Source: Pseudonocardiales bacterium (GTDB taxonomy: Bacteria; Actinomycetota; Actinomycetes; Mycobacteriales; Jatrophihabitantaceae). Taken from it: a DNA stretch of 36,694 bases. Positions within the stretch are counted from its first letter, which is position 1, and each line of letters starts with the position of its first letter. The stretch lies in the NCBI GenBank assembly GCA_025966155.1, contig JAOPVO010000135.1, forward strand, positions 1 through 36,694, in the 5' to 3' direction. A model generated the notes under the pieces. That model ran no database searches. It was not told the origin of the DNA and was given only the letters and a program-made list of their open reading frames with translations. A program made the translations under genes and the position numbers. Shown here in pieces: positions 7,414 through 29,051 of the stretch.

Positions 7414-7423
7414 CGTCGTCTCC

Positions 7424-12695: not shown

Positions 12696-12705
12696 AGAAT
12701 GCTCC

Positions 12706-13788: not shown

Positions 13789-13802
13789 GGCGCTTCCCCG
13801 GA

Positions 13803-15005
13803 TCAGGCCGCGACATAGCGCGACGCGGGCCGGGCGAGGCCGAGGTGGCCGCGCAGCGTGGAGGACTCGTAGGCCGTGCGGAAGGCGCCGCGGCGCTGCA
13901 GCTCGGGCACGAGCCCGCGGGTGATGGCCTGCACGTCGGTCGGTGCGACGGCCGGGCGCAGGCGGAAACCCTCGAGGCCCGCTGCCGTCCAGGACTCGAG
14001 CAGATCGGCGAGCTCGACGGGCGTGCCGGCGAAGATGGCGGCGTCGGAGGAGTAGACCGAGCCGGAGCGCTCGTCGAGGCGGTCCTTGCGGTCCCGCGCC
14101 GCCTGGGCCGAGTCGTCGAGGAAGACCACGAGGTCGCCCCAGACCCGCAGCGGCTCCCCGGTGCGCCCGGCGGTGGCCTCGGCCGCGCGCGCCTCGGCCA
14201 GGATGCTCGCGGCCTGGTGCTCGTCCTTCGGCGTGATGTACATCAGATCGGCTCCGCCGGCCGCCAGTGCATACGGCATCGCCTGGTGGCCGAGCAGCGT
14301 CACCAGCGGCTGCCCCTGCGGCGGGCGCGGGGTGATCGAGGGGCCCTTGACGCTGAACTGGGCGCCCTCGAAGTCGATGTAGTGCAGCTTGTCGCGATCC
14401 ACGAAGCGCCCCGTGGCGGCGTCGCGGATCTCGGCGTCGTCCTCCCAGCTGTCCCAGAGGCGGCGGACGGCCTCGATGTGGTCGGCGGCCTCATCGAAGA
14501 GGCTCTGGATGAAAGCGGCGATCTCGGGCTTCGCGCGGTCGGCCAGGGTGAACTGCGGGAACTCGCGGCGGCCGAAGTGCTCGGCCTCGCTCGGGCGGGT
14601 CGAGACCTGAACGCGCCAGCCGGCCCGTCCGGTGCTGACGTAGTCCAGCGTGGCCAGGCTCTTGGACACGTGGAACGGCTCGGTGTGCGTGGTCGTCACG
14701 GTCGGGACCAGCCCGATACCGCTGGTGACCGGGGCGATTCGGGCGGCGATGAGCAGGGCGTCAAGGCGGCCGCGGACCTGATCGGTGCGGGCCTCTGGCG
14801 GGCCATAGCCGGTCGTCTGAAGGGCGAGGGAGTCCTCGATGGTGACGAAATCGACGAGCCCGCGCTGGGCCTCCTGGGCCAGCTCGGCCCAGTAGGAGGC
14901 CTCGAAGAGGCGCTTCGGCTCGGCTGCGGGCTCGCGCCAGGCGGCCGGGTGCCAGCCGGCGCCGTCGAGGGCGATGGCGAGGTGGGTCTGGGCAGATGCA
15001 GGCAT
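13803..15005 (-). CDS. LLM class flavin-dependent oxidoreductase, first gene of riboswitch-2 operon
   Basis: A 400-residue luciferase-fold enzyme: AGWHPAAWREP near the N-terminus, VDFVTIEDSLALQ, IGLVPTVTTTHTEPFHVSKSLATLDYVSTGRAGWRVQVS, WDSWEDDAEIRDAATGRFVDRDKLHYIDFEG and SITPRPPQGQP, ending AFRTAYESSTLRGHLGL like the DszA/NtaA enzymes. Its closest relative in the window is the shorter protein at 4225-5328. The ATG at 15005 has GGGG eight bases upstream and lies 102 nt after the leader-peptide stop codon. As first structural gene it should respond most directly to the SAM-IV riboswitch and the leader peptide. The substrate is unknown; sulfur oxidation is inferred from regulation. Confidence 0.88.
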   Translation of the reverse strand: MPASAQTHLAIALDGAGWHPAAWREPAAEPKRLFEASYWAELAQEAQRGLVDFVTIEDSLALQTTGYGPPEARTDQVRGRLDALLIAARIAPVTSGIGLVPTVTTTHTEPFHVSKSLATLDYVSTGRAGWRVQVSTRPSEAEHFGRREFPQFTLADRAKPEIAAFIQSLFDEAADHIEAVRRLWDSWEDDAEIRDAATGRFVDRDKLHYIDFEGAQFSVKGPSITPRPPQGQPLVTLLGHQAMPYALAAGGADLMYITPKDEHQAASILAEARAAEATAGRTGEPLRVWGDLVVFLDDSAQAARDRKDRLDERSGSVYSSDAAIFAGTPVELADLLESWTAAGLEGFRLRPAVAPTDVQAITRGLVPELQRRGAFRTAYESSTLRGHLGLARPASRYVAA

Positions 15006-15107
15006 GGCTATGGCCCCAATTCGAGAGCGGGTGGGTGCGGGATGAGGAGCGGCGCCGACGATTGCATCGCCGTTCGGGCCGGGTGGTGCGGGCGTGCGGT
15101 CAGGCGC

Positions 15108-15188
15108 TCAACGACAGAGCGCGCTGGCCGATCGGCACAGGTCGATGGCCTGGCGGACCACCAGGTACGGCGGCTCTGCGTGCGTCAT
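15108..15188 (-). CDS. Cysteine-type leader peptide (26 aa)
   Basis: The minus-strand ATG at 15188, preceded by GAGAGAG, encodes 26 residues with the tail IDLCRSASALCR and a TGA stop. The core LVVRQAIDLCRSASALCR matches the pattern of short actinobacterial leader peptides found upstream of sulfur-assimilation genes (Streptomyces versions look like LVSRRHVDLGRMSSAIC). Cys codons lie at positions 18 and 25, next to the stop, so ribosome stalling when charged tRNA-Cys is scarce could open the downstream message. The ORF track includes it only as the tail of a longer 82-aa ORF whose first half is the riboswitch, so the start must be the internal ATG. It sits between SAM-IV riboswitch 2 and the first monooxygenase gene. 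Assignment is by recalled pattern; no alignment was run. Confidence 0.72.
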   Translation of the reverse strand: MTHAEPPYLVVRQAIDLCRSASALCR

Positions 15189-15201
15189 CTCGGTAGCTCT
15201 C

Positions 15202-15227
15202 TCACCCGGGGCCCGCGGGGTGCGGGC
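15202..15227 (-). promoter_or_regulatory. Expression-platform hairpin of riboswitch 2 with aptamer-mimicking repeat
   Basis: On the minus strand GCCCGC-ACCCC-GCGGGC forms a 6-bp hairpin (15211-15227) at the end of the aptamer. It runs into GCCCCGGGTGA (15202-15212), an exact 11-nt copy of an aptamer strand at 15262-15272. The copy lies immediately before the GAGAGAG ribosome-binding site of the leader peptide, so an aptamer strand exchange could control access to that site. Confidence 0.45.
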
Positions 15228-15335
15228 GCGCTTGCCGCATAACGTGCCTGCGGCCGTGTCTTCACCCGGGGCACCCCGCCGCGGTGGGAGGGTTGCCGGC
15301 CAGCAAGCCGGGGCTGAGCACTGGCACTCGTGACG
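15227..15335 (-). ncRNA. SAM-IV class riboswitch, unit 2
   Basis: Minus-strand reading gives GTCACGAGTGCCAGTG, then CCCCGGCTTGCTGGCCGG, CAACCCTCCC, ACCGCGGCGGGGTGCCCCGGGTGAAGAC, a CCGCA/TGCGG hairpin and a closing GCGGCAAGCGCG, which is the SAM-IV consensus with little deviation. It starts the transcript of the 12-gene monooxygenase/ABC operon and is followed directly by the leader peptide. The two elements are expected to sense SAM and cysteine respectively. Confidence 0.9.
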
Positions 15336-15359
15336 TTGTGGTTCAGTCGTACGCACTCG

Positions 15360-15389
15360 AAGGTACGTCGGCCCAGCCGGTTTTGTCTA
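15360..15389 (-). promoter_or_regulatory. Predicted promoter of the riboswitch-2 operon
   Basis: TAGACA (15384-15389) and TACCTT (15360-15365) on the minus strand are 18 bp apart. The expected start site near 15353 lies some 18 nt before the aptamer. The -35 element is part of the inverted repeat at 15383-15405, so a bound protein would directly block or contact polymerase. Confidence 0.42.
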
Positions 15390-15405
15390 GTTGAGGGCTA
15401 GACAA
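15383..15405. promoter_or_regulatory. Candidate operator, unit 2 (perfect 8-N7-8 palindrome)
   Basis: TTGTCTAG-N7-CTAGACAA is a perfect inverted repeat. The CTA at 15398-15400 is the stop codon (TAG) of the aminotransferase gene read on the minus strand, so the operator overlaps the upstream coding end. It overlaps the predicted -35 box of the riboswitch-2 operon and matches the palindromes at 497-519 and 16980-17002. A dimeric sulfur regulator is likely but unidentified. Confidence 0.6.
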
Positions 15406-16795
15406 CCGTGGGATCGTCGTCACATTCCCCGGCCGCGGCGCGCAGCGTGGCCCCGCCCAGGAACTGCGGGAGGGTCCGGGTCTCCGGGCTCGGCGCGACC
15501 TGGCCGTCGATGCGGCTGTAGGTCCAGCGCGGTCCATCGGAGACCAGGGCGGCAAGGGCGGACAGCAGCCGGTCCACATCGGCCTCGGAGCTGTCGAGGC
15601 CGAGGCTGGCGCGGACAGCCGTCGCCGACGACGTCAGGCGCGCCAGCAGCGGATGGGCGCAGAACCGGCCGTCGCGCACGCCGATCCCATGCTCGGCGGA
15701 CAGGAAGGCGGCAACCTGCTCGGCGTCGTATCCGGGGACGGCGAAGGTGACGATGCCGACGACGTCGATGCGGCTCGTGCCATCGGCGGTCGCGTCCGCG
15801 GCCTCGGGCCAGATGCGCAGCGGCTCGATGCCCAGAGCATGCAGGCCGCTGCTGAGCCGGCGCAGCAGGTGCTCCTCGCGCTCGGGCGCCTCGCCATCGG
15901 GCCGGGCGGCCAGCGCGCGGCAGGCCTGCGCCAGGGCCGCCGCGCCGAGGACATTCGGGGTGCCCGCCTCGTGTCGCGCGGGGACATCGGCCCACGTGGT
16001 GCCATCGAGCCCGACGTGGCGGACCGCCCCGCCGCCGGCGAGGTACGGCGGCGCGGCGTCCAGCCAATCCCGGGCCCCGATGAGGACCCCGGCGCCGTAG
16101 GGGGCGTAGAGCTTGTGGCCGGAGAAGGCCAGGTAATCCACGCCCGATCGGGAGATGTCGATCCGCCGGTGGGGGACCAGCTGCGCGCCGTCGACGGCGA
16201 GGCGGGCGCCGTGGCGATGGGCGATCGCGGCGACGAGGTCCAGCGGCAGGCACTCCCCGGTCACATTGGAGGCGCCCGTGACCGCGACCAGGGCCGCGGG
16301 CGCACGCCGGAGCTCGGCCTCGAGTGCCGCCAGAGTGCCCTCGATCGTGGGTTCGGCCACGACGGCCCGCCCGCCGCGCAGTTGCCACGGCAGCAGGTTC
16401 GCGTGGTGCTCGATATCGAGGTGGACGACGTCGCCGGGCACAGCCGAGGCGAGCAGATTCAGCGCATCGGTCGTGTTCCGGGTGAAGATGACGACGTCAT
16501 CGGGCCGGGCGCCGACGAATCGTGCGACCTCGACGCGGGCGGCCTCGTACACCTCGGTCGACACCTGCGAGGCGTAGCCGGCGCCGCGATGGACGCTGGA
16601 GTACAGCGGCAGCAGTGCCGCGACGTGGTCCGCGACCTCGCGCAGGGCGGGGGCGCTGGCGGCGTAGTCGAGGTTGACGTAGTCGATGTCGCCGCCCTGG
16701 ACCAGCGGAACGCGCACGCCGGTCCCGACGAGGCGCGACTGCGCGATTACGGGGGACTGCGAGTTCAGAGGGGACTGCGAGAGAAGGGCGGTCAT
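15398..16795 (-). CDS. Class V aminotransferase, cysteine desulfurase (SufS/CsdA)-like
   Basis: A 465-residue PLP enzyme. Landmarks: NLDYAASAPAL and VHRGAGYAS at the N-terminal side, VIFTRNTTDALNLLA, LDIEHHANLLPWQ (substrate-side His), VDGAQLVPHRRIDI with the cofactor Asp, the Schiff-base lysine in FSGHKLYAPYGAGVLIG (Lys228), and DGRFCAHPLL, where Cys379 matches the persulfide cysteine of SufS-type desulfurases (CAxP). It would remove sulfur from cysteine or a related S-substituted amino acid. The N-terminus carries a serine/glutamine-rich extension with SQSP twice and the C-terminus extends beyond a typical SufS (about 405-410 aa). No suf genes are adjacent. It has its own promoter and SAM-IV riboswitch, so it is likely for sulfur-source use rather than housekeeping Fe-S assembly. 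AGGAG precedes the ATG by six bases. Confidence 0.85.
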   Translation of the reverse strand: MTALLSQSPLNSQSPVIAQSRLVGTGVRVPLVQGGDIDYVNLDYAASAPALREVADHVAALLPLYSSVHRGAGYASQVSTEVYEAARVEVARFVGARPDDVVIFTRNTTDALNLLASAVPGDVVHLDIEHHANLLPWQLRGGRAVVAEPTIEGTLAALEAELRRAPAALVAVTGASNVTGECLPLDLVAAIAHRHGARLAVDGAQLVPHRRIDISRSGVDYLAFSGHKLYAPYGAGVLIGARDWLDAAPPYLAGGGAVRHVGLDGTTWADVPARHEAGTPNVLGAAALAQACRALAARPDGEAPEREEHLLRRLSSGLHALGIEPLRIWPEAADATADGTSRIDVVGIVTFAVPGYDAEQVAAFLSAEHGIGVRDGRFCAHPLLARLTSSATAVRASLGLDSSEADVDRLLSALAALVSDGPRWTYSRIDGQVAPSPETRTLPQFLGGATLRAAAGECDDDPTVV

Positions 16796-17024: not shown

Positions 17025-18326
17025 TCAGAACTCCATCAGGTTCTCGCGGAAGAGCGCCGAGGAGTAGCCCGACCGCATGAGGCCGCGGCGTCGCAGGGCC
17101 GGAGCCAGGCCGTCGGCGACCTCGGTGATGTTCTTGCGCGTCACCTCGCTGCCGATCAGGAACCCATCCCCGCCGACGTACTCCATGATCTCGCCCATCT
17201 GCACCGCGACGCTGTCCGGGGAGCCGACGATCTGGATGGACCCGATGCCCGATGCCTTGTCCGTCAGCGTCTGGCGCAGGGTCTTGGCCCCGGCGACGCG
17301 CTGGAGATCCGCGACCATGCTCTGATGCCCGTTGGACTTGCCGGTGAGATCGGGCAGCGGCGCATCGAGATCGAAGGTCGAGAAGTCCATGCCGCTCGTG
17401 TAGGACAGCCCGGCCAGCGCAGGCTCGAAGTTGGCCACCTGGGCCGCCTTCTGCCGCTCGAGCTTCACCTTGGCGTCCTCGTCGGTGTCGGCCAGGACCG
17501 GGGACACCAGGAACAGCACCTTCGCGTCGGAGGGCTTCCGCCCGTGGGCGATCAGCCGGGCCGACATGTCGTCGCGGTACTCCTTCATCGCCTCGATGCC
17601 GGAGACGAGGGCCACGACGGTGTCGGCGTGCTTGGCCGCGACATCGCGCCCCGCGGGGGATCCGCCGGCCTGGCAGATGACGGGGCGGCGCTGCGGGCCC
17701 GGGACGGTGTTCAACGGGCCGCGGGACTTGTAGAAGCGGCCCTCGAAATTGATCGGGTGGATCTTGGTGTGGTCGGCGAAGACGTGGTTGTCCTCATCCA
17801 GCACCAAGGCGCCGGGCTCCCAGGATTCCCATAGGGCGGTAACGAGGTCCATCCACTCATCGGCCATCTCATAGCGCAGGTCGTGCTCGAAGTGCTTCTC
17901 GTACCCGTAGTTCTGGGCGGCCGCGTGAGGGCTGGCCGTCACTAGGTTCAGCCCGACCCGGCCATCGGTCAGATGGTCCAGCGTGGTGAACAGCCGCGCG
18001 GCGAGGAATGGCGGGTAGAACGTCGTGGCCGCGGTGGCGATGATGCCGATCCGCGATGTGACGCCCGCCAGAAGGGGCACCAGCGCCATCGGGTCATGGC
18101 GCACGACCCCATTGCGGAGCGAGAACTCCAGCGAGCCCTGATAGACATCCGGGACCACCGAGGAGTCCTCGATCATCATGTAGTCGAAGCCCGCGCGCTC
18201 GAGTGAGGTTGCCATGTCCTTGAAGAGGCCCGGCTGCCCGACATCGGCCGCGACATTGCCCGACCACTGCTGATTCCAGCCGTAGACGCCGAACCCGTAG
18301 TGCAGGAACCAGCCCATGTGGAACAT
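17025..18326 (-). CDS. FMN-dependent monooxygenase, tandem paralogue 4 (NtaA/DmoA-type)
   Basis: A 433-residue luciferase-fold enzyme beginning MFHMGWFLHYGFGVYGWNQQWSGN, the signature shared by the four tandem copies. Family blocks are intact: SLERAGFDYMMIEDSSV, FYPPFLAARLFTTLDHLTDGRVGLNLVTASPHAAAQNYG, RYEMADEWMDLV, RGPLNTVPGPQRRPVICQAGGSPAGRDVAAKHADTVVA (flavin phosphate region), and a C-terminal FRENLMEF. The ORF track continues 295 codons upstream through the next gene; the ATG at 18326 matches the start of all sisters. It is the last gene of the seven-gene operon. Relatives include dimethylsulfide and nitrilotriacetate monooxygenases that use external FMNH2. The substrate is unknown. Confidence 0.88.
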   Translation of the reverse strand: MFHMGWFLHYGFGVYGWNQQWSGNVAADVGQPGLFKDMATSLERAGFDYMMIEDSSVVPDVYQGSLEFSLRNGVVRHDPMALVPLLAGVTSRIGIIATAATTFYPPFLAARLFTTLDHLTDGRVGLNLVTASPHAAAQNYGYEKHFEHDLRYEMADEWMDLVTALWESWEPGALVLDEDNHVFADHTKIHPINFEGRFYKSRGPLNTVPGPQRRPVICQAGGSPAGRDVAAKHADTVVALVSGIEAMKEYRDDMSARLIAHGRKPSDAKVLFLVSPVLADTDEDAKVKLERQKAAQVANFEPALAGLSYTSGMDFSTFDLDAPLPDLTGKSNGHQSMVADLQRVAGAKTLRQTLTDKASGIGSIQIVGSPDSVAVQMGEIMEYVGGDGFLIGSEVTRKNITEVADGLAPALRRRGLMRSGYSSALFRENLMEF

Positions 18327-18382
18327 GCGATCAACCCCAGATGTGTCGTGTGATGCAGGTGTCGGCGCCGCGCAGGTGCGGC

Positions 18383-19681
18383 TCAGTACTCGAGCAGGTT
18401 GTCCCGGAAGTGCTCGTATGTGTAGGACGAGCGGATCAGCCCGCGCCGCCGGAGCGCCGGGGCCAGGCCGTCGGCGATCTCGGTGATATTCCGCCGAGTG
18501 ACTGGCTTGGCGATCAGGAAGCCGTCGCCTCCGGCATATTCCATAGCCTCTTTCATCTGGACGGCGACTGTGTCCGGTGTGCCGACCAGTTCGATGGACT
18601 CCACGACCGAGCGGGTCGATGCGACTTCGCGCAGCGTCTTGCCCTCCCCCGCCTTGGCATAGTCGGCATAGGTGCTCTGGTGCCCGTTGACCTTGCCGGT
18701 CAGGTCGGGGAACGGCCCATCGAGGTCGAACTTCGAGAAGTCGTGCCCGCTGGTGTACGACATGCCGGCGAGGGCGCCCTCGAGGTCGGCGGCGGCGGCC
18801 GCGCGCTGACGGTCGAGGCGATCGTGGGCCTCCTGATCGGTGTCCCCGAAGGTCGGGACGACCAGGAAGAGGATCTTCGCATCGCTGGGCTTGCGGCCGT
18901 GGGCGATCATCCGGCGGCTGATGTCGTCGCGGTACTCCTTCATCGCCTCGACGCCGACGACCGCGGCGATGATCGTGTCGGCGTGCTTCGCGGCCACCTC
19001 CCGCCCGGCCGGGGACCCGCCGGCCTGGCAGATCACCGGCTTGCGCTGAGGGCTGGGCACGGTGTTCAGCGGGCCGCGGGACTTGTAGAACCGGCCCTCG
19101 AAGTCGACCCGCCGAACCTTGGTGTGATCGGCGAACACGCCGGCCGCCTCGTCCATGACGACCGCGTCGGCATCCCAGGACTCCCATAGCGCGGTAACGA
19201 GATCCATCCACTCGTCGGCCATCTCGTAGCGCAAGTCGTGCTCGATGTGCTTCTCCAGGCCGTAGTTCTGCGCCGCGGCATGCGGGCTGGCTGTCACGAT
19301 GTTGATTCCGACCCGGCCGTTGCTCAGGTGGTCCAGGGTGTTGAACAGCCGGGCCGCGAGGAACGGCGGGTAGAACGTCGTGGCCGCGGTGGCGATGATG
19401 CCGATCCGCGAGGTTGCCGCCGCCAGCAGCGGCACCAGCGGCATGGGATCGTGGCGAACAGTGCCCTTCCGGGTCGCGAACTCCAGGTTCCCGCCATAAA
19501 TGTCCGGGATCACCGAGGAATCCTCGAGCATCATGTAGTCGAAGCCGGCCCGCTCGAGCGAGGTGGCCATATCCACGAATAGCCCCGGCTGCGCCACGTC
19601 AGCGGCGACATTGCCCGACCACTGCTGATTCCAGCCGTAGACACCGAATCCATTGCTGAGAAACCATCCCATGTGGAACAT
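18383..19681 (-). CDS. FMN-dependent monooxygenase, tandem paralogue 3 (NtaA/DmoA-type)
   Basis: A 432-residue sister of its neighbours: MFHMGWFLSNGFGVYGWNQQWSGN, SLERAGFDYMMLEDSSVIPDIYGGNLEFATRKGTVRHDPMPLVPLLAAAT, RVGINIVTASPHAAAQNYGLEKHIEHDLRYEMADEW, and KPVICQAGGSPAGREVAAKHADT. ATG 19681 (AAGGAG five bases upstream) is preferred over the track's GTG at 19687. It is most similar to paralogue 1 in the central block, so the array seems to have arisen by repeated duplication. It is separated from paralogue 4 by 56 nt and from paralogue 2 by 41 nt. A two-component flavin monooxygenase role is expected. Confidence 0.88.
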   Translation of the reverse strand: MFHMGWFLSNGFGVYGWNQQWSGNVAADVAQPGLFVDMATSLERAGFDYMMLEDSSVIPDIYGGNLEFATRKGTVRHDPMPLVPLLAAATSRIGIIATAATTFYPPFLAARLFNTLDHLSNGRVGINIVTASPHAAAQNYGLEKHIEHDLRYEMADEWMDLVTALWESWDADAVVMDEAAGVFADHTKVRRVDFEGRFYKSRGPLNTVPSPQRKPVICQAGGSPAGREVAAKHADTIIAAVVGVEAMKEYRDDISRRMIAHGRKPSDAKILFLVVPTFGDTDQEAHDRLDRQRAAAAADLEGALAGMSYTSGHDFSKFDLDGPFPDLTGKVNGHQSTYADYAKAGEGKTLREVASTRSVVESIELVGTPDTVAVQMKEAMEYAGGDGFLIAKPVTRRNITEIADGLAPALRRRGLIRSSYTYEHFRDNLLEY

Positions 19682-19722
19682 GCGCACTCCTTAGCTGATG
19701 TGGGCGCGGACTGTTGGAGCGC

Positions 19723-21009
19723 TCAGAACTCGCGCAGGGTGTCGCGCAGGTTCGTGTAGCTGTAGCCATCGCGGGTCAGCCCGCGCTTGCGCAGCTGCGG
19801 GGCCAAGCCGTCGGCAACCTCGGCCACTGTGCGGCGATTGACGGGCAGGCTGATCAAGTAGCCGTCGCCGCCGGCCTCCTCCATGGCCTCGCCCATCAGT
19901 GCGGCCACGGTTGCCGGCGAGCCAACGAGATCAACCGACGTGGGCATCGGGGCGGTGGCGACCTCGCGCAGCGTCTTGGCGCCTTGGCCCTCGGTGTAGA
20001 GCGCGGTGGTGCTCTTGGCGTTGTTCGTCACGATCTGGGGCATCGGCCCGTCGAGATCGAACTGCGAGAAGTCGACGCCGCTGGAGAAGGACATCGTCGA
20101 GAGCGCGCCTTCGACATTGCGCTGGCGGGCCGCGTCGATGCGGCGCCGCTTCTCCTGGGCGTCCTCATCGGTATCAGCCAGGATCGGGGAGATCATGTAC
20201 AGGACCTTGCAATCCCCGGGATCGCGCCCGGCAAGAACCATGAGCCGCGAGATCTCCTCGCGGAACGCCTTCATGGCTGCGACGCTGCCGACTTGAGCCA
20301 CGATCGTGTCGGCGTGCCGGGCGGCGAAGGCCTGGCCCGCCGGGGACCCGCCGGCCTGGCAGATGACCGGACGGCCCTGGGGGCCGGGCACGGTGTTGAG
20401 CGGGCCGCGCGACCGGAAGTACTTGCCCTCGAAGTTGATGTGCCGGACCTTGGTGTGGTCGGCGAACACCCCTGTGCTCTCGTCCAGCACCAGTGCGTCG
20501 GAATCCCACGAATCCCATAGGGCCTGCACGACCTGCACCCACTCGTCGGCCATGTCGTAGCGCAGGTCGTGCTCGTAGTGCTCATCGAGCCCGTAGTTCT
20601 GCGCCGTGCGCTGGTTGTGGGCCGTGACCAGATTGGCCCCGACCCGGCCGTTGGTCAGGTGATCCAGGGTGACCAGCGCGCGCGCCGCCAGGAAGGGGGG
20701 ATAGAAGCTGGTGGTGATCGTGCAGATCAGCCCGATGTTCGACGTGGCCTGCCCGATGGTCGAGACCAGCGCCATGGGGTCGTGCTTGGGCACCAGACCG
20801 GATCGAAGGCTGTGCTCAGTCGTTCCCTTGTATACGTCAGGGATGAACGAGCCGTCCTCGAGCATCATGTAATCGAAGCCGGCGCGCTCGAGCGAGCGCG
20901 CCATCTCGACATAGCGCTCGGCCTGCATCCACTCGGTGCCGCTGTTCCCTGACCACGTGTCGTTCCACGAGGACACGTTGAAGCTGAGGAACCAGCCCAT
21001 ATGGAACAT
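19723..21009 (-). CDS. FMN-dependent monooxygenase, tandem paralogue 2, diverged (NtaA/DmoA-type)
   Basis: A 428-residue member of the array and its most diverged copy. It starts MFHMGWFLSFNVSSWNDTWSGNSGTEW instead of the GFGVYGWNQ(Q/P)WSGN of the other three, and has NLVTAHNQRTAQNYGLDEHYEHD where the sisters have NLVTASPHAAAQNYG. These changes lie in loops that shape the active site in this fold, so a different substrate is likely. The flavin block RPVICQAGGSPAGQAFAARHADT is kept. The start ATG is 2 nt after the stop of paralogue 1 and uses GGAG within that gene's last codons. The track's 702-aa ORF is a run-through in the same frame. Confidence 0.88.
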   Translation of the reverse strand: MFHMGWFLSFNVSSWNDTWSGNSGTEWMQAERYVEMARSLERAGFDYMMLEDGSFIPDVYKGTTEHSLRSGLVPKHDPMALVSTIGQATSNIGLICTITTSFYPPFLAARALVTLDHLTNGRVGANLVTAHNQRTAQNYGLDEHYEHDLRYDMADEWVQVVQALWDSWDSDALVLDESTGVFADHTKVRHINFEGKYFRSRGPLNTVPGPQGRPVICQAGGSPAGQAFAARHADTIVAQVGSVAAMKAFREEISRLMVLAGRDPGDCKVLYMISPILADTDEDAQEKRRRIDAARQRNVEGALSTMSFSSGVDFSQFDLDGPMPQIVTNNAKSTTALYTEGQGAKTLREVATAPMPTSVDLVGSPATVAALMGEAMEEAGGDGYLISLPVNRRTVAEVADGLAPQLRKRGLTRDGYSYTNLRDTLREF

Positions 21010-21011
21010 GA

Positions 21012-22301
21012 TCAGAACTCCAGGAGATTGTCGCGGAAGTGGTCGTAGGAGTAGGACGACCGGATGAGCCCGCGCCGACGCAGGGCCGGGGCCAGGCCAT
21101 CGCAGACCTCGGTGATGCTCTTGCGCGTGACGGGGCTGCCGATGAGGAAGCCATCGCCGCCGGCGTACTCCATAGCCTCGCCCATCTGGACGGACACGGA
21201 CTCGGGCGTGCCGACGAGGGGGATGGACTCCACCGTGCGGTGCTTCGAGGCGATCTCGCGCAGCGTCGGGCCCGACTTGGCGTAGTCGTTCATCGTGCTC
21301 TGGTGCCCGTTGTTCTTGCTTAGGTCCGGCATCGGCGCATCGAGGTCGAACTTCGAGAAGTCCATGCTCGTGAAGTAGGACATCGCCGCCAGGTTCCCCT
21401 CGAGGTTGGCGGCCTGGGCTGCGGCCATTCGATCCGCCTTGGCCTGCGCCTCGCCCTCGGTGTCGCCCATGATCGGGGAGATCAGGAACAGCACCTTGAC
21501 GTCGGTTGGCTTGCGGCCGAAGGAGATCATCCGCTCCGAGATGTCGTCGCGGTACGCCTTCATCTCCTCGACCCCGACCACGGCGGCGATGATCGTGTCG
21601 GCGTGCTTGGCGCCGAAGTTGCGCCCGGCGGCGGACCCGCCGGCCTGGCAGATGATCGGCCGGCCCTGCGGGCTGGGGACCGTGTTGAGCGGGCCGCGCG
21701 ACTTGTAGAACTGCCCTTCGAAGTCGACGCGGTGGACCTTGTTGTGATCGGCGAAGATCCCGCGCTCCTCGTCCATGATCAGGGCATCGGGCTCCCATGA
21801 GTCCCAGAGCGCCTTGACGACCTGCACCCACTCATCGGCCATCTCGTAGCGCAGGTCGTGCTCGACGTGCTTGTCGAGGCCGTAGTTCTGCGCGGCGGCG
21901 TGCGGGCTCGCGGTCACCAGGTTCACCCCGACCCGCCCCTTGGTGATGTGGTCGAGGGTGTTCATCAGGCGCGCGGCCAGGAAGGGCGGGTAGAACGTGG
22001 TGGCGGCGGTCGCGACGATGCCGAGCTTCGACGTTGCCGCGGCGAGCAGCGGCACCAGCGGCATCGGGTCGTGCCGAACCACGCCGACCTTCAGGGAGTG
22101 CTCCAGGGAGCCCCCGTAGATATCCGGGATGACCGAGGAGTCCTCGAGCATCATGTAGTCGAAGCCGGCGCGCTCCAATGAGGTCGCCATGTCCACGAAG
22201 AGCTGCGGGTTGGCGATATCGGACGCCACGTTTCCCGACCACGGCTGGTTCCAGCCGTAGACGCCGAACCCCATTCCGAGGAACCATCCCATGTGAAACA
22301 C
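21012..22301 (-). CDS. FMN-dependent monooxygenase, tandem paralogue 1 (NtaA/DmoA-type)
   Basis: A 429-residue protein, first of the tandem array: (M)FHMGWFLGMGFGVYGWNQPWSGN, SLERAGFDYMMLEDSSVIPDIYGGSLEHSLKVGVVRHDP, ITKGRVGVNLVTASPHAAAQNYGLDKHVEHDLRYEMADEW, and RPIICQAGGSAAGRNFGAKHADT. The GTG at 22301 has GGAGG six bases upstream and gives the same N-terminus as the sisters; the track's ATG at 22340 adds 13 unrelated residues. It follows the second transporter lipoprotein after a gap that carries a strong hairpin. Expected activity is FMNH2- and O2-dependent cleavage of a C-S bond; the sulfur role is inferred from neighbours. Confidence 0.88.
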   Translation of the reverse strand: MFHMGWFLGMGFGVYGWNQPWSGNVASDIANPQLFVDMATSLERAGFDYMMLEDSSVIPDIYGGSLEHSLKVGVVRHDPMPLVPLLAAATSKLGIVATAATTFYPPFLAARLMNTLDHITKGRVGVNLVTASPHAAAQNYGLDKHVEHDLRYEMADEWVQVVKALWDSWEPDALIMDEERGIFADHNKVHRVDFEGQFYKSRGPLNTVPSPQGRPIICQAGGSAAGRNFGAKHADTIIAAVVGVEEMKAYRDDISERMISFGRKPTDVKVLFLISPIMGDTEGEAQAKADRMAAAQAANLEGNLAAMSYFTSMDFSKFDLDAPMPDLSKNNGHQSTMNDYAKSGPTLREIASKHRTVESIPLVGTPESVSVQMGEAMEYAGGDGFLIGSPVTRKSITEVCDGLAPALRRRGLIRSSYSYDHFRDNLLEF

Positions 22302-22349
22302 GTCGTGCCTCCAGTGATTAGCAGTAAATGGACATGCCACGGCCGACCT

Positions 22350-22377
22350 GTGCGGCCCGCGACGATGCGGGCCGCAC
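22350..22377 (-). terminator. Intra-operon hairpin (attenuator or 3'-end stabiliser)
   Basis: GTGCGGCCCGC and GCGGGCCGCAC form a perfect 11-bp GC stem around a 6-nt loop. It lies 49 nt after the lipoprotein stop and 48 nt before the first tandem monooxygenase start. There is no U-tract. It probably sets a high lipoprotein to low monooxygenase ratio rather than ending the transcript completely. Confidence 0.6.
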
Positions 22378-22426
22378 GAGGTCCGTGCCGGTGGTGGCGC
22401 TGGTGAGGTGCTGAGCTAGCTTTTGA

Positions 22427-24091
22427 TCAGCTGAACGACATCATGCTGAAGTCCAGAACGTTGTCGGTGCGGTGGACGAACCCGGTGATGCCCTTCTTGA
22501 ACACCATGAGGGGCTCGACCTTGGCGACCTGGATCTGCGGGCGGTAGTCCTGCCAGATCAGCTGCGCCTTGTTCCACTGCTTTCCGGCGGCGTCGGAGAG
22601 CGAGTCCCCGGCCGCGACGCCGGCATCGACCGCTGCGTAGTAGCTCGGCTCGTTGAAGCCCGCGGTGTTGCGGATGGGGTTGTCCTTCGGGAAGGCCAGC
22701 AGCAGGCTGTATGGCGGCGACTCGTAGGAGACCGACATGTCGCGGTAGATCCGCACATCCCATTGGCCGCTGGAGTTGCGCTCGACGAAGGTGGCAGGGG
22801 GCACCACCGCGATTGTCACGTCGAAGCCGGCGTCCTTGGCGTAGCTCTGGATCTGGACGGCCATCTCCTCCATGTCCGGCACTGCGCTGCTGGCGAGGAT
22901 CTCGTACTTGACCGGCCCGGTGACGCCGGCCTTGGCCAGCAGCTCCTTGGACTTGGCCGGGTCGTACTTCTGTGTGAGCAGCCCGCTGCCGTCGTAGCCG
23001 GGCGAGCCCGGGTCGAGGAGGCCGATAGCCGGCTTAGCCCGGCCCTTGTAGACCTGGTCGATGATGTCCTGGTACGGCACCGCATAGAACAGGGCCTGGC
23101 GGACCAGCTTGTTGTCGAACGGCGCCTTGTTGGAGTTGATGAAGATCCAGGAGAAGTTGTTCGTGTCCGGCTGGAACGTGGTGACCGAGTCGGCCTTCTC
23201 CATGTCGGCGACATCGGCGGGCCGCAGCTGCACCGCAACGTCGACATCGCCGTTCTTGACGAGCGTGGCGCGGTTGCCGGCATCCGGGACGACGCGCTGA
23301 ATCACGTGCTTCACGGCCGGCTCGCCGAGGGGGTAGTTCGGGTTGGCGTCGAACGTCAGCTGCTCGTTCTGCTTGTACGACGTCATGATGTACGGCCCGT
23401 ATCCGAAGTTGCCGTTCTCGTTGGACCAGCTGACGGCGTACGGGTCGGCGGTGGTTGCCTTCGACTTCAGCAGCGTGCTGTCGTAGATCTCGCCGGAGAT
23501 CTTGGAGATGACCGACAGCAGCGGGAAGCCGTGGCCGGCCTGGGCGACGGTGAAGGTAACGGTGTAGTCGTCGACCTTGACCAGCTGCTTCTTCGGGTCG
23601 GTGATCGCCGGGAGGCTGATCGACTTGGCGATGCTGGTCGAGTTCCACTTGCGCTCGTACGACCACAGCACGTCATCGGCGGTGAACGGGTTGCCGGCCT
23701 GGCTCTTCACGCCCTTGCGCAGGTGGAAGGTGAACACCGTCCCGTCGGCGCTCACGTCGTAGCTCTCCGCGAGTACGCCCTCGAACTTGTAGAGGTCCTG
23801 GGTGAGGGCGTTCTTGTCGTCCTTGGACTCGACGTAGGGGTTGCGGATCAGCGTCGCCCCGGTGAGCAGCGTGTACTCGAAGGCCTCATAGCCACCGGGC
23901 TTCGCGTCGAAGGCGAGGCCGCCGGGAACAGTGGCCACTGCCTCGACGAGGGTGTCCGAGGTGTTCCCGCTGGCGCCGCCGCCACCCCCGGAGGGGCCGC
24001 CGCTGCCGCATGCTCCGAGGACGAGGGTCGAGATGGCCGCGGCGGCAAGTGCCGCGAGCCGCGTGGATCTGAATGGCCGAGCTGGGGACAC
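22427..24091 (-). CDS. ABC transporter substrate-binding lipoprotein (SBP family 5), second system
   Basis: A 554-residue lipoprotein: the short N-terminus has a hydrophobic stretch and lipobox LGAC (Cys28), then a Gly/Ser tether. The mature domain shows LAESYDVSADGTVFTFHLRKGVKSQAGNPFTADDVLWSYERKW, YGPYIMTSYKQNEQLTFDANPNYPLGEPAVKHV and LVRQALFYAVPYQDIIDQVYKG, all typical of oligopeptide/nickel-type binding proteins. It is only distantly similar to the lipoprotein at 11052, so the ligand differs. The start is GTG with GAAGGAG five bases upstream. It follows its two permeases, the reverse of the order in the first operon. No ATPase gene accompanies this system in the window. Confidence 0.92.
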   Translation of the reverse strand: MSPARPFRSTRLAALAAAAISTLVLGACGSGGPSGGGGGASGNTSDTLVEAVATVPGGLAFDAKPGGYEAFEYTLLTGATLIRNPYVESKDDKNALTQDLYKFEGVLAESYDVSADGTVFTFHLRKGVKSQAGNPFTADDVLWSYERKWNSTSIAKSISLPAITDPKKQLVKVDDYTVTFTVAQAGHGFPLLSVISKISGEIYDSTLLKSKATTADPYAVSWSNENGNFGYGPYIMTSYKQNEQLTFDANPNYPLGEPAVKHVIQRVVPDAGNRATLVKNGDVDVAVQLRPADVADMEKADSVTTFQPDTNNFSWIFINSNKAPFDNKLVRQALFYAVPYQDIIDQVYKGRAKPAIGLLDPGSPGYDGSGLLTQKYDPAKSKELLAKAGVTGPVKYEILASSAVPDMEEMAVQIQSYAKDAGFDVTIAVVPPATFVERNSSGQWDVRIYRDMSVSYESPPYSLLLAFPKDNPIRNTAGFNEPSYYAAVDAGVAAGDSLSDAAGKQWNKAQLIWQDYRPQIQVAKVEPLMVFKKGITGFVHRTDNVLDFSMMSFS

Positions 24092-24155
24092 CGGGACTCC
24101 TTCGGAAGTGGTGCTGAGGGAAGCGGGCGGGGTTGGTGCGGTGCGGCCGGCGGCG

Positions 24156-25052
24156 TCAGTGCACGCGGCGGTGGAACAGCAGGCGCGTCAGGCCGGCGAA
24201 TGAGGCGACCGTGATCGCGAGGGCGAGGGTCGGGAAGGCTGCGGACCACCAGCGGCCGACGATGGCGTCGGTCGCCCCGCGCGACAGCATCGCGCCCCAC
24301 TCCGGTGTGGGTGGCGGCAATCCGACGCCGATGAATCCGAGGGCCGCAGTGAGGATGACGCTGACGGCGAAGATGACCGACGTGTTCTCAAGGGCCGCCC
24401 AGCTGCTGTTGGGGAGCACATGGCGCACGGTGAGGCGGCGCTCGGACAGCCCGGCCATCCGCGCGGCGTCGACGTAGGCCTCGCCGCGGACCCGGAGCAC
24501 CTCGGTGCGCACCAGGCGAAGCTGGATCGGCGCGAGGATGACGGACAGCGCCAGCGTCAAGCTGGTTGTCGATGCCCCGTAGAAGGCGACGACGACCAAG
24601 CCGACGAGCACGGCGGGCACAGCCTGGATGAGGTCGATGACCCGGGCCAGGCCCCGCGCCGTCCAGCCCACCGGGCCGCGCCGCGACTCGTTCATACCGA
24701 TGCCCAGACCCAGGATGATGCCGCCAGAGGTAGCTAGCAGGCTCACGATCAGGGCGATTGTCAGGTTGATGCGCGTGGCGACGATGACGCGGGAGAACAC
24801 ATCGAGCCCCGAGGAGTCGGTGCCGAACCAGTACTGGCCGTTGGGCGCGGTCGACGAGGGGCCGGCGACCCGCTCCGGGTCCCATGGGACCAGGTACTTG
24901 CCCACGACCGCCAGGATCACCAGCAGGAGCGGCGGAATCACCATCCACCAGCCCTTGGGCAGGGGGTTGCGCCGGCGCGGGGCCTCGGCCTCGGCGCGCG
25001 GTCCCCCAGTCGGAAGGGTGCTGGACGTGGACTCGATTGCGGTGGCAGTCAT
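24156..25052 (-). CDS. ABC transporter permease, DppC type, second system
   Basis: A 298-residue membrane protein: N-terminal cytoplasmic tail, first membrane segment GWWMVIPPLLLVILAVVGKYLV, the DppC motif QYWFGTDSSGLDVFSRVIVATRI, and the EAA loop DAARMAGLSERRLTVRHVLPNSS. It ends with LGFIGVGLPPPTPEWGAMLSRGATDAI, where the PEWG motif is conserved across the subfamily. Its ATG overlaps the upstream permease stop as TGATG, so the two are translationally coupled. It works with the DppB-type protein upstream and the lipoprotein downstream (64-nt gap). The ATPase must come from elsewhere, possibly the double-ATPase protein at 7424. Confidence 0.92.
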   Translation of the reverse strand: MTATAIESTSSTLPTGGPRAEAEAPRRRNPLPKGWWMVIPPLLLVILAVVGKYLVPWDPERVAGPSSTAPNGQYWFGTDSSGLDVFSRVIVATRINLTIALIVSLLATSGGIILGLGIGMNESRRGPVGWTARGLARVIDLIQAVPAVLVGLVVVAFYGASTTSLTLALSVILAPIQLRLVRTEVLRVRGEAYVDAARMAGLSERRLTVRHVLPNSSWAALENTSVIFAVSVILTAALGFIGVGLPPPTPEWGAMLSRGATDAIVGRWWSAAFPTLALAITVASFAGLTRLLFHRRVH

Positions 25053-26095
25053 CAGGTTCCCTCCGCCCGGACGCCGGGCCGGCGGCGCGGATCGACGACC
25101 ATGTTGATGAGATCGACGAAGAGGTAGACCAGCAGCGACAAGGTGGCCACGACCAGCAGGAAGCCCTGCATCGAGACGAAGTCGCCGGAGCTGATCGCGT
25201 CCACTGCGTACTGGCCCATGCCGGAGAAGCCGAACAGCGTCTCAAGGATCACGGCGCCGCCAAGTAGATAGCCGAATAAGGTGCCGGACATCGTGATGGC
25301 CGACGGCGCGGCCCGGCGGTAGACGCTGGCCATCACCGTGATGCGCCCTGCGCCGGACGCGATCCGGAAGCGGGTGGGCGGCGCGTCCAGCGCCTCCTCC
25401 AGGCCGGAGATGAGGATCTTGATCATGATCGCCGACTGCGAGATCACCAGCGTGATGATCGGCAGGGCCAGGTGCGAGGCCATGGACCAGGTCGCATCCC
25501 AGTAGCGCTGGAGAATGGTGTCGAGGAAGGGCATCCCCGTGACCTTGTCCGGGCTGATCATCGTGGTGTCGAGCCGGCCGACGGGCGGTGGCGCCCAATG
25601 CAGCGTCGTGTAGAACAGGAAGAGCGCGACGATGGCCAGCACGTACTCCGGGATCGCGCCGGCCGACTGCGCGTACACCTTGAGGCCGCGGGAGATCGGG
25701 TTCCGCGGGTGCATCACGATGATGTACGAGGCGAACACGCTGAAGATCAGCGTTCCGATGAGGCCCATCAAGGCGAGCTCCGCGGTTGCGGGCACGAGAT
25801 CGCTCAGTTCCGTCAGCACGGACCGGCCCGTGATCAGGGAATCCCCGAGATCGAAATGAGCAACGTTAGCTAGGTAACGAAGCAGCTGGTCCAGCAGCGA
25901 TCCGTTGAGGCCAAGCTCCTTCTGCATCTCGTCGTACGCCTCGGGCGACGCATTCTGGCCCAGGAGCACAAGCACCGGGTCGCCGGGGACCGAGCGCAGC
26001 AGGAAGAACGTCAAGATGGTGAAAATCAACAGGTGCAGGGGCAGTGCGGCAATCCGCACGAGCCACCACCGCTGTTGCCTGATAGTCGCTAGCAC
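25052..26095 (-). CDS. ABC transporter permease, DppB type, second system
   Basis: A 347-residue permease with LPLHLLIFTILTFFLLRSVPGDPVLVLLGQNASPEAYDEMQKELGLNGSL at the N-terminus (membrane segment, PGDP motif and the conserved GLN turn), FDLGDSLITGRSVLTELSDLVPATAELALMG, the EAA-type loop and a terminal FVDLINMVVDPRRRP. The track's ATG at 26143 was rejected: GTG 26095 has CGGAGG eight bases upstream and gives a normal N-terminus. It is the first gene of the operon that ends with the four tandem monooxygenases. Its upstream region (26096-26348) has repeats but no SAM-IV aptamer, so this operon is controlled differently from the other sulfur units. Confidence 0.9.
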   Translation of the reverse strand: MLATIRQQRWWLVRIAALPLHLLIFTILTFFLLRSVPGDPVLVLLGQNASPEAYDEMQKELGLNGSLLDQLLRYLANVAHFDLGDSLITGRSVLTELSDLVPATAELALMGLIGTLIFSVFASYIIVMHPRNPISRGLKVYAQSAGAIPEYVLAIVALFLFYTTLHWAPPPVGRLDTTMISPDKVTGMPFLDTILQRYWDATWSMASHLALPIITLVISQSAIMIKILISGLEEALDAPPTRFRIASGAGRITVMASVYRRAAPSAITMSGTLFGYLLGGAVILETLFGFSGMGQYAVDAISSGDFVSMQGFLLVVATLSLLVYLFVDLINMVVDPRRRPGVRAEGT

Positions 26096-26113
26096 CAGTT
26101 GAACCTCCGTTAG

Positions 26114-26125
26114 ATCGCGTATCGG
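26114..26125. repeat. 12-nt repeat copy A, ATCGCGTATCGG (candidate regulator site)
   Basis: Exactly repeated at 26297-26308. This copy lies 19 bp upstream of the GTG of the first permease gene of the second operon. The repeat is partly dyad-symmetric around CGCG. It could be a binding site for the GntR-type regulator at 27063. Confidence 0.35.
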
Positions 26126-26229
26126 GCACACCGCATCGCCCACCCGAGCGTCACTGCGCCGGCGGTTCGCCGCGTCCTGTTCGACGCGTTGGGGAAGTTC
26201 TGCTCTGTTCCTGGGTCAATGCTTGGGAT

Positions 26230-26242
26230 CAGGTGTTACCTG
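26230..26242. promoter_or_regulatory. Perfect short palindrome CAGGT-GTT-ACCTG
   Basis: A 5-N3-5 inverted repeat in the middle of the 253-bp gap between the second sulfur operon and the UTRA protein gene. Both flanking genes are on the minus strand, so it probably lies upstream of the operon start. It is a candidate operator; no regulator can be assigned. Confidence 0.3.
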
Positions 26243-26296
26243 AACCCGCGTCCGCCGGTAACTGCTGCGTTGCGCCGGTATCGCCAGTGTTTCCGA

Positions 26297-26348: not shown

Positions 26349-26897
26349 TCATGCGTACGTGCTGAGCGCGACCCGGTCGCTGCGGTAGTGCGTATAGCTC
26401 AGGGACCAGGGCTGGCCGTCGACGTCGCGCACGATCATCTGGCGCAGCAGGATGCTGTCGCCCTCCTGAATGTCCAGCAACTGCGCGGCATGCGCCTCGC
26501 ACTTGACCGCCTCGAGCACAGTCTCGCTCGATCCGTAGCCCACGCCGAAGGCCGCCCGGAAGGTCTGCTCGACCGATCGATCGCGGAAGCCGTTGGAGCG
26601 CTCGATGCGCGCCATCAGCGCCTCGGGGTCGTCCGAGGTGGGGTAGTAGCCGACGCGCAGATACAGCGGCTGGCCGTCGAGGCGGGCCAATTGCTCGACC
26701 ATCACGACGGTGTGGTCCTCGCGCTGCAGCAGCGACCTGATCACTGGAGTCGATCGGATCACCGCGTGCTCGAGCTCCTCGACGACGATGCGCGAGGGCG
26801 CCGCCCCACTGAGCTCGCCTTGGGTCACCAGTTGATCCATGGAGATGCTCACGACATCGCGGTCCGGCACATCGGGATCGGGCAGCACGGACTTCAT
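26349..26897 (-). CDS. UTRA-domain protein without a DNA-binding domain
   Basis: A 182-residue protein that aligns over most of its length with the effector-binding half of the regulator at 27063: LDGQPLYLRVGYYPTSDDPEALMARIERSN against LSGEPAYVRIGYIPRTRDSEDLVDRIEELD, then FRAAFGV, LLDIQEGDSILLRQMIVRDVDGQPWSLSYTHYRSDRVALS. The UTRA fold looks complete, but there is no winged-helix domain: only 165 bp separate its ATG from the divergent regulator, and none of the minus-strand frames there resembles a GntR helix-turn-helix. It may be a decoy partner that dimerises with the full regulator, a free ligand sensor, or a decayed paralogue. The start is uncertain because the ATG has no clear ribosome-binding site. 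Confidence 0.72.
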   Translation of the reverse strand: MKSVLPDPDVPDRDVVSISMDQLVTQGELSGAAPSRIVVEELEHAVIRSTPVIRSLLQREDHTVVMVEQLARLDGQPLYLRVGYYPTSDDPEALMARIERSNGFRDRSVEQTFRAAFGVGYGSSETVLEAVKCEAHAAQLLDIQEGDSILLRQMIVRDVDGQPWSLSYTHYRSDRVALSTYA

Positions 26898-27062
26898 CGG
26901 GGCCAGTGGACCACGCCCAGGATTCAGTCAGGCGACGGCGCTGTTTCCAGGTCATTGCGCAGATTCCCAGTGCGGAAAAGGGATCTGATGTCACACCCGC
27001 GGTCATAGTCGGGGCCCCATCGCCTCGCTACTCTCAGTGGCATTGGACGGAAGGCTGGTGCT

Positions 27063-27893
27063 GTGCCTGAACACCGAGATGGCGAGACTGCTCGCGCGCG
27101 GCAGATGCGGCTCAAGCGCGAGAAGGGCAAGGGGGCGCACTCCTCGCCCCGACGGGCGTATGAGCAGCTCCGGGCCGGCATTCGGGTGGGCGCCCTCGAT
27201 CCACGGCAGCGTCTGGTCGACGATGGCCTGGCCGACGTATTGGGGGCGAGTCGCAACTCGGTGCGCCGCGCCCTGCAGATGCTGGCCGAGGATGGCTTGA
27301 TCACCCGTGAGCGCGGTACGGGAACGACCCTGTGCCGGCCGATCTTCGAGGTGCCGGCCGGTGAGATGCTCCCGCGCAACGCCGGGAGCACGGCCGAGTC
27401 CGCTGGGCCGGACGGGCCCGTCGCGTTCGTCGAGGAGCTGCGCAACGAGGTCGCGGCCTGCCCGGCCGACGTGCGCGAGCGACTGGGCGTCGAGGCGCGC
27501 ACGATCTTCATCTACGAGCAGTTGGTGTTGCTGAGCGGTGAGCCGGCCTACGTCCGGATCGGATACATCCCGCGCACCCGCGACAGCGAGGATCTTGTCG
27601 ATCGCATCGAGGAGCTCGACAAGGACCTGCAGTCCTTCGACGCGAACTTCGCGCGCGTTTTCGGCGTGCCCTTCGGGGGAAGCCGCACAACCGTCGAGGC
27701 GCTGCCGTGCTCGCGCCGGATCGCGCACTTGCTCGGTATCGAGGAAGGGAGTCCGGTCCTGCTGCGGGAGCTGACGCTGCTCGATGCGTTCGGGCAGATC
27801 CGCGAGATCAGCTACACCCACTTCCGCGGGGACCGGATCGCGTTGTCAGCCGACGGGCGAGCCTCGATCGGGCGCAGGGCTCAGGCGTCCTGA
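27063..27893 (+). CDS. GntR-family transcriptional regulator (HutC/UTRA type)
   Basis: A 276-residue regulator with an N-terminal winged helix (about residues 29-85: RRAYEQLRAGIRVGALDPRQRLVDDGLADVLGASRNSVRRALQMLAEDGLITRERGTGT, a textbook GntR pattern) and a C-terminal UTRA ligand domain (about 115-265: FIYEQLVLLSGEPAYVRIGYIP, ISYTHFRGDRIAL). The start is GTG with GGAAGG eight bases upstream, beside the divergent UTRA-only protein. Its 3' end overlaps the convergent MFS gene by 48 bp. It is the best local candidate to control the second ABC/monooxygenase operon or the MFS exporter, sensing a small molecule. The target is inferred from position only. Confidence 0.9.
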   Translation: MPEHRDGETARARQMRLKREKGKGAHSSPRRAYEQLRAGIRVGALDPRQRLVDDGLADVLGASRNSVRRALQMLAEDGLITRERGTGTTLCRPIFEVPAGEMLPRNAGSTAESAGPDGPVAFVEELRNEVAACPADVRERLGVEARTIFIYEQLVLLSGEPAYVRIGYIPRTRDSEDLVDRIEELDKDLQSFDANFARVFGVPFGGSRTTVEALPCSRRIAHLLGIEEGSPVLLRELTLLDAFGQIREISYTHFRGDRIALSADGRASIGRRAQAS

Positions 27894-29051
27894 GGCAGAG
27901 GGGTAGTGCAGGGCAAGGCGCAGGCTAAGCGCGGCCAGGCCCATCGTGGCCATGATGATCCCCATCGGCACCCCGGTGTTCGAGCCGCCCAGCCCGACCA
28001 GAGGCGCGACGGAGGCCCCGATGGAGAACTGGAGCAGGCCCAGCAGCGCCGACGCGCTCCCGGCCGATTCGGGGAAATCGTTCATGGCCAGCGCCATTGC
28101 ATTGGGGGCAATGAATCCATTCGATGACATCACGATGAGCATCGCCGCGATGAGGCCGCCGATCCCGAACAGCCCGGTCGAGACGACGATCAGCACGCAC
28201 ACCCCGCCGGATGCGAGGCCGATCAGCCCCGCCGTCATCAACCGGGTCGAGCCGAGCCGACCCACGAGCCGGCCATTGATCTGGCTGGCGGTCACCAGGC
28301 CGACGGCGTTCACGGCGAACACGACGCCGTAGGCCTGGGCGCTGAGGCCATAGACGTTCTGCACGACGAAGGACGATCCGGCCACGTAGGCGAAGATCGA
28401 GCCGAACCCCAGCCCGCACACCACCGCATTGGCCACGAAGGTGCGATGCGTGGCGACAGCCCGCATGGTCGAGAGTGTGACCCGCAGCCCGCCGGCATTG
28501 CGGTTGGACGCGTCGAGGGTCTCGGGCAGGCGCAGCGCGGCGATGAGCAGCAGGACGGAGCCGGCAACAGAGAGGGCGAGGAAGATCCCGCGCCAGGGCG
28601 CGAAGCTCAGGACCAGGGCGCCGACCTGGGGGGCGAGGATCGGCCCGGCTCCGGTCACCAGCATGAGCAGGGAGAAGAAGCGCGCGGCGGTTGCCCCGGA
28701 GTAGAGATCGCGCACCACCGCCCGGGAGATCACGATCCCGGCCGCGCCGCCCAGCCCCTGGAGCAGACGCAGAGCGATCAGCACGGCGATCGATGGCGCG
28801 AAGGCGCAGGCGCAGGACGCGACCACGAACAGCGCGAGGCCCAGGCACAGCGGGCGGCGCCGGCCGAGGCGGTCGCTGAGCGGCCCGATGAGCAACTGCC
28901 CGGCGCCGAGCCCGATCAGGCATGCGGTCAGCGACAGCTGGACCGACGAGGCACTCGCAGCGAGGTCGTCGCTGATGTCCGGCAGGGCCGGCAGGTACAT
29001 GTCGATGCAGAGCGGGCCGAAGGCGGCCATGGCTCCAACCAGCAGGATCAT
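27846..29051 (-). CDS. Bcr/CflA-like MFS drug exporter
   Basis: A 401-residue major facilitator with 12 predicted membrane segments. GPLCIDMYLPALPDISDDLAAS in the first loop is the Bcr/CflA signature, GPLSDRLGRRRPL is MFS motif A after segment 2, and LQGLGGAAGIVISRAVVRDLY follows in segments 4-5. Family members export chloramphenicol, bicyclomycin and similar compounds, and some export cysteine pathway metabolites. The start ATG lacks a strong ribosome-binding site; no better upstream ATG or GTG was seen. It is convergent with, and overlaps, the GntR regulator gene, and follows the STAS gene after 59 nt, so the two could share a transcript. The substrate is unknown. Confidence 0.88.
   Translation of the reverse strand: MILLVGAMAAFGPLCIDMYLPALPDISDDLAASASSVQLSLTACLIGLGAGQLLIGPLSDRLGRRRPLCLGLALFVVASCACAFAPSIAVLIALRLLQGLGGAAGIVISRAVVRDLYSGATAARFFSLLMLVTGAGPILAPQVGALVLSFAPWRGIFLALSVAGSVLLLIAALRLPETLDASNRNAGGLRVTLSTMRAVATHRTFVANAVVCGLGFGSIFAYVAGSSFVVQNVYGLSAQAYGVVFAVNAVGLVTASQINGRLVGRLGSTRLMTAGLIGLASGGVCVLIVVSTGLFGIGGLIAAMLIVMSSNGFIAPNAMALAMNDFPESAGSASALLGLLQFSIGASVAPLVGLGGSNTGVPMGIIMATMGLAALSLRLALHYPSASGRLSPAPDRGSPVG

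Follow-up and report, generated by a model that had tools for sequence, protein, structure and literature searches.

In a 36,694-nucleotide stretch of DNA from a Pseudonocardiales bacterium (here called the window), we found a gene whose product, P0001, has a complete UTRA effector domain and lacks the helix-turn-helix (HTH) of the GntR family. It stands beside the gene for a full-length GntR/HutC-type regulator, P0002, and is linked to a cluster of dpp-type transporter and flavin monooxygenase genes. P0001 is predicted to fold as a whole UTRA domain. The same HTH-less form is conserved in the same type of cluster in a second genus, Nakamurella, with selection evident at the protein level, and the sensor domain of the full-length regulator in that cluster is eroded. 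Rather than being a broken copy, P0001 probably functions together with the regulator and tunes it. We tentatively propose, giving it a little short of an even chance, that P0001 senses the ligand and acts as a subunit of mixed dimers with P0002.

A UTRA protein without a DNA-binding domain

One entire contig (C152) makes up the window; the draft genome to which it belongs totals 3.3 Mb in 361 contigs and is approximately 85% complete. In a Pfam scan, UTRA was the sole domain of P0001 (E = 2.4e-15, profile positions 11 to 140 of 141), with a PF07702 score of 57 bits against a curated cutoff of 23.8, and no HTH family matched even at an E value of 0.1. The N-terminal winged HTH that defines the GntR family (PF00392) is present in P0002 (GntR, 9.2e-13; UTRA, 1e-13) but not in P0001. 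The two proteins are 42% identical over 143 amino acids, in agreement with an earlier note on this DNA, which described a 182-residue protein with a full UTRA domain homologous to that of its neighbor. The invariant UTRA residues are present. In alignments, the P0001 N terminus falls directly after the HTH wing of full-length kin, and a stretch loosely aligned with their interdomain linker is retained.

The same note had stated that P0001 has no HTH and that the 165 bp upstream leave no room for one. Both statements held: an HMM of the HTH of the P0001/P0002 subfamily reached at best 0.5 bits in the six frames of this gap, with P0002 scoring 90 bits as the positive control. A frameshifted or miscalled HTH was ruled out, given that no remnant was seen in six frames and the same form occurs in an independent genome. 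Searches for sigma-70 promoters and terminators returned none above chance. The GC content of the P0001 open reading frame by codon position (0.69/0.42/0.89) is like that of neighboring genes, which indicates a real coding sequence, and the frame is closed by a stop 10 codons 5' of the ATG. Because no obvious Shine-Dalgarno sequence precedes this ATG, the exact start is uncertain.

On the same strand, the P0001 gene is followed by DppB-, DppC-, and DppA-like genes and then by four NtaA/DmoA-type FMN monooxygenase genes (Table 1); the monooxygenase open reading frame at 21012-22340 matches TIGR03860 at 399 bits (cutoff, 279.7). An MFS transporter gene comes after P0002. The cluster from 17025 to 26143 is without ATPase genes, unlike the clusters of Nakamurella and Frankiaceae described below. 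Elsewhere in the same genome, three more regulators of the P0002 subfamily (L021 on C71, L022 on C65, and L023 on C291) all carry an HTH; each adjoins NtaA-type monooxygenase genes, and C71 carries a dpp-type operon as well.

Table 1. Features of the window in and around the P0001/P0002 gene pair
Feature	Position	Strand	Remarks
Four NtaA/DmoA-type FMN monooxygenase genes	17025..22340	-	17028-18326, 18386-19681, 19726-21009, 21015-22301
DppA-like solute-binding lipoprotein	22427..24091	-	69% identical to Nakamurella protein
DppC-like ABC permease	24156..25052	-	64% identical to Nakamurella protein
DppB-like ABC permease	25052..26143	-	58% identical to Nakamurella cluster protein; true start probably slightly inside the open reading frame
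Palindrome GGGATCAGGTgttACCTGAACCC	26225..26247		Candidate operator, GntR-family form GT-N3-AC; between P0001 gene and dppB
P0001, HTH-less UTRA protein	26349..26897	-	182 aa, ATG start; UTRA domain 26370-26774; predicted linker strand, residues 16-19
Divergent intergenic region	26898..27062		165 bp; all frames free of HTH remnants; no match to sigma-70-like promoter
P0002, full-length GntR/HutC-type regulator	27063..27893	+	276 aa; winged HTH, residues 31-89; UTRA, residues 127-259
Bcr/CflA-type MFS transporter	27846..29051	-	Present too in Nakamurella and Frankiaceae clusters

Occurrence in relatives and the Nakamurella pair

Among 57 UTRA matches from 24 genomes of its family, P0001 was the sole certain HTH-less case; a second short UTRA frame (G018, contig C42; 153 aa) was set aside because its contig, of 3,441 bases, ends there. 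No comparable HTH-less protein was detected in samples of 60 relatives and of 397 phylum, 395 class, and 399 order genomes, with the sole exception of Nakamurella leprariae, nor was one detected among 397 genomes of the order of Nocardioides bruguierae or among 35 Frankiaceae genomes. Single-sequence scanning of genome contigs yielded no close P0001 orthologues, and an alignment-based scan of the contigs gave matches in Nakamurella, Frankia, and Nocardioides. Viral contigs gave no match, and plasmids gave distant full-length types only. Five dpp/NtaA-type clusters of Frankiaceae (L117 to L121) are of the same kind as that of P0001 and P0002 (MFS, dppDFBC, solute-binding protein, and monooxygenases), but each has a single full-length regulator and no HTH-less partner. 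Given its absence from most relatives, P0001 is an accessory rather than a conserved core part, and it is a rare variant within a known family. In the open-access papers searched, we found no literature on HTH-less UTRA proteins.

Two other regulator arrangements were seen in these searches. In Nocardioides bruguierae (G808, contig C4; L095:4742-6397, minus strand), one 551-residue frame (532 residues from the likely start) holds two complete HTH-UTRA units in tandem, the first HTH scoring 65 bits and the second 20 with the HTH model of the P0002 subfamily. This protein is a fusion of two regulator units in which one DNA-binding head is weakened, and it may be a natural parallel to an asymmetric dimer. 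In a relative from the same family (G006, contig C463), two full-length GntR/UTRA regulators (L024:176-967 and 1091-1837, minus strand) lie in tandem beside a peptidase-like gene.

In N. leprariae YIM 132084, an intact gene encodes an HTH-less UTRA protein, P0003, that is 43% identical to P0001 and cut at the same place. The gene order, all on one strand, is dppD-dppF-dppB-dppC-solute-binding protein-P0003-MFS-four monooxygenases-P0004, the last being a full-length GntR regulator. GGAG precedes the likely GTG start of P0003, and its stop overlaps the MFS start (TGATG), which places P0003 within a coupled gene row. An apparent internal stop in P0004 proved to be a TGA at the normal gene end. 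The window cluster is a near relation of the Nakamurella cluster, with the protein identities given in Table 1; those between Nakamurella and Frankiaceae are 50 to 52% for the solute-binding protein, 58 to 62% for DppC, and 53 to 55% for DppB. P0003 thus combines the features proposed to mark a conserved partner, namely an intact frame in a second lineage, the same cluster, and a full-length companion. A P0003-like gene is absent from 16 other Nakamurellaceae genomes. The earlier note had named absence or frame disruption in close relatives as the sign of a decaying pseudogene: the gene is indeed absent from most relatives, but the Nakamurella homologue is intact and without decay.

Fourfold-degenerate sites of P0001 and P0003 agree at 55%, against 44% expected from composition, and are therefore near saturation; the dppB genes give a similar picture (52%, with 43% expected). 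At the protein level, 40% of residues are identical, against a shuffled mean of 7%. It follows that both genes have long been held by purifying selection, which was the check suggested in the earlier note for the HTH-less form. In the UTRA tree, P0001, P0002, and P0003 grouped together (91/87) inside the starred group that also contains the Frankiaceae cluster regulators, their sister group. With long branches left out, P0001 and P0003 were sisters in the best tree (71/70, weak support), and alternative topologies with P0002 were not rejected (AU test, P = 0.24 and 0.27), so two independent truncations are possible. Judged from these sequences, the HTH-less form is likely to have arisen once, and the duplication probably predates the split of the window and Nakamurella clusters.

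The full-length Nakamurella partner is unevenly conserved. The HTH of P0004 groups (86/83) with those of P0002 and the best Frankiaceae matches, to which it is 56 to 60% identical, whereas its UTRA domain is merely 23 to 31% identical to theirs. Branch lengths in changes per column are 2.28 for UTRA versus 0.41 for HTH in P0004, and 0.78 versus 0.53 in P0002. Pfam scored the P0004 HTH at 51.6 bits and its UTRA at 28.1 bits, over the second half of the profile only (positions 80 to 140). In the P0004 structural model, part of which is of low confidence, the first UTRA helix is shrunk to 3 residues. The position of DasR Glu196 is Glu in P0001, P0003, P0002, and nearly all kin and is Ser in P0004. 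According to a supplementary figure legend, Glu196 is contributed by the neighboring chain to the set of contacts by which the DNA-binding domain is held (PMC4918961, S3 Fig). Its loss in P0004 is as expected if P0004 pairs with P0003, a suggestive sign from a single genome. Erosion of the P0004 sensor domain favors a cooperating pair over a remnant. The earlier note had suggested that P0001 could modulate the regulator through mixed dimers or ligand titration, a reading that these comparisons support in part.

Predicted fold and possible modes of action

An AlphaFold2 model of P0001 built from a 15-row alignment has the whole UTRA fold (mean pLDDT, 82; pTM, 0.78), with a short strand at the beta* place in the linker whose local pLDDT is merely ~53 to 67. 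In GntR/HutC proteins this linker strand forms upon effector binding (PMC4918961). The best PDB matches in a fold search were full-length DasR (4zs8) and its effector domain bound to glucosamine-6-phosphate (4zsi), at E values of 3e-11 to 5e-11; the DUF98 protein AF1396 was listed too. With DasR, NagR (YvoA), and the isolated effector domains (4zsi and 4zsb), P0001 has in common the predicted UTRA fold, the Glu196 equivalent, and a Y-R-x-D-R signature near the C terminus; its low-confidence strand at the place of the interdomain linker strand may be a further likeness. It differs in being a natural gene product without a DNA-binding domain and in having Gln/Ala in place of Arg142 and Arg144, the Arg-x-Arg phosphate motif of strand E2. 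This motif is widely shared but not universal in GntR/HutC, and nearly the whole subgroup of P0001 has Gln and a non-Arg residue there. Arg occupies the position of DasR Glu154 in every subgroup member but one and that of Leu219 in every member. With the Arg pair replaced, a sugar-phosphate effector bound as in DasR seems unlikely. As a guess, the ligand could be some anionic compound on which the linked monooxygenases act.

GntR/HutC regulators are usually viewed as symmetric homodimers. UTRA is the dimerization domain throughout the family, and isolated effector domains dimerize (PMC4918961). In the model that we favor, P0001 would derive from a duplicate of the GntR/HutC regulator of the cluster, keeping the linker and folding as a complete effector domain, and would pair through the UTRA dimer interface with P0002, the product of the adjacent gene. 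Such a mixed dimer would have a single DNA-binding head and so would bind a palindromic operator poorly or in one ligand state only. Production of P0001 would then presumably relieve or retune repression of the dpp-transporter and monooxygenase genes, depending on the P0001 level and the ligand. Against this model, only two HTH-less members (P0001 and P0003) were found; moreover, the UTRA domain of P0002 looks intact, so that P0002 needs no P0001 for sensing.

The operator bound by P0002 may be the palindrome at least 82 bp upstream of dppB (Table 1). GT-Nx-AC is the operator form of the GntR family (PMC4494728). The palindrome was spotted post hoc, and 45 of 3,000 shuffles of the two gaps matched its quality; the genome contains a single copy of its core, CAGGTNNNACCTG. 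Neither CAGGT-N3-ACCTG nor GT-Nx-AC was present in the Nakamurella and Frankiaceae regions scanned. Should the palindrome be the operator, a separate promoter may serve dppB, and P0001 would not have to be part of the dppB transcript.

TrlR of Agrobacterium is a TraR-like antiactivator without the DNA-binding domain of TraR; it forms inactive TrlR:TraR dimers and probably came from a duplication (PMC3907764). P0001, too, is a regulator paralogue without a DNA-binding domain, and by analogy it might, with not quite even probability, work on P0002 as TrlR does on TraR. However, TrlR belongs to the LuxR family, has an unrelated fold, and targets an activator, and dimerization of P0001 is a prediction. 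If the mixed-dimer model is true, an HTH-less subunit that is under selection and encoded beside the very cluster it targets would mean that bacteria build asymmetric or dominant-negative forms of a very common switch, as with TrlR for TraR. P0001/P0002 and P0003/P0004 are two natural pairs for direct tests of regulation by heterodimers.

As the main alternative, P0001 could bind the ligand as a homodimer and, with no contact to P0002 at any time, buffer or titrate the effector in the manner of a metabolite sink. Its complete effector domain with linker would suit this role, the P0001 and P0003 genes both adjoin uptake and catabolic genes that would import or make the ligand, and isolated DasR effector domains are ligand-binding homodimers (PMC4918961). 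Nevertheless, when a catabolic substrate is titrated at protein-like concentrations, the effect is usually weak, and buffering leaves the UTRA erosion of the Nakamurella partner unexplained; we consider it unlikely.

That erosion would be accounted for if labor is obligately divided, with the full-length protein chiefly binding DNA and the HTH-less one sensing, the two together making a two-component GntR regulator. The low and partial UTRA score of P0004 beside its strong HTH fits, as do the shortening of its first helix and the loss of the Glu196 equivalent, while P0003 retains these features. This explanation fits Nakamurella better than the window, where the good UTRA domain of P0002 puts the pair at most halfway; the signs come from one genome and a partly low-confidence model, and we regard obligate division as fairly unlikely here. 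The broader notion of a two-subunit GntR/HutC regulator, in which a DNA-binding chain and an HTH-less sensor chain come from separate genes and the DNA-binding chain's own sensor decays once the work is divided (as in Nakamurella), we rate as somewhat unlikely.

We give little credence to P0001 as a remnant of a duplicated GntR gene heading for loss. Its absence from most relatives, including the other Nakamurellaceae and the Frankiaceae genomes, and the lack of a clear Shine-Dalgarno sequence point that way, but the frame is intact with normal codon-position composition and invariant UTRA residues kept, purifying selection is evident against a second intact HTH-less gene, and the gene occupies the same neighborhood in two families. 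That P0001 is a nonregulatory enzyme or carrier is very improbable: the UTRA fold resembles that of chorismate lyase UbiC (PMC4918961), and AF1396 is among the fold matches, but the sequence and fold of P0001 are closest to GntR/HutC effector domains, it keeps the regulator linker, and its nearest kin are themselves regulators.

Other features of the gene clusters

The part of the window from 493 to 16795 contains more LLM monooxygenases (730-2073, 2828-4228, 6235-7413, and others) and a second dpp-type transporter (7424-12854). Within the latter, a 622-residue open reading frame (7424-9292, minus strand) matches DppD-type ATPases twice (7436-8245 and 8324-9058) and is apparently a fused two-ATPase protein of this second cluster. 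A cysteine-desulfurase-like gene at 15398-16795 scores below the SufS cutoff. The region is an island rich in flavin monooxygenases, which perhaps act on organosulfur compounds. Strong hairpins lie directly 3' of the solute-binding protein genes in the window (22350-22377, GTGCGGCCCGC...) and in Nakamurella (L093:15398-15515, GGCCGGTCGTCCCCGC...), with similar ones in the Frankiaceae clusters; these hairpins may damp expression of the downstream genes.
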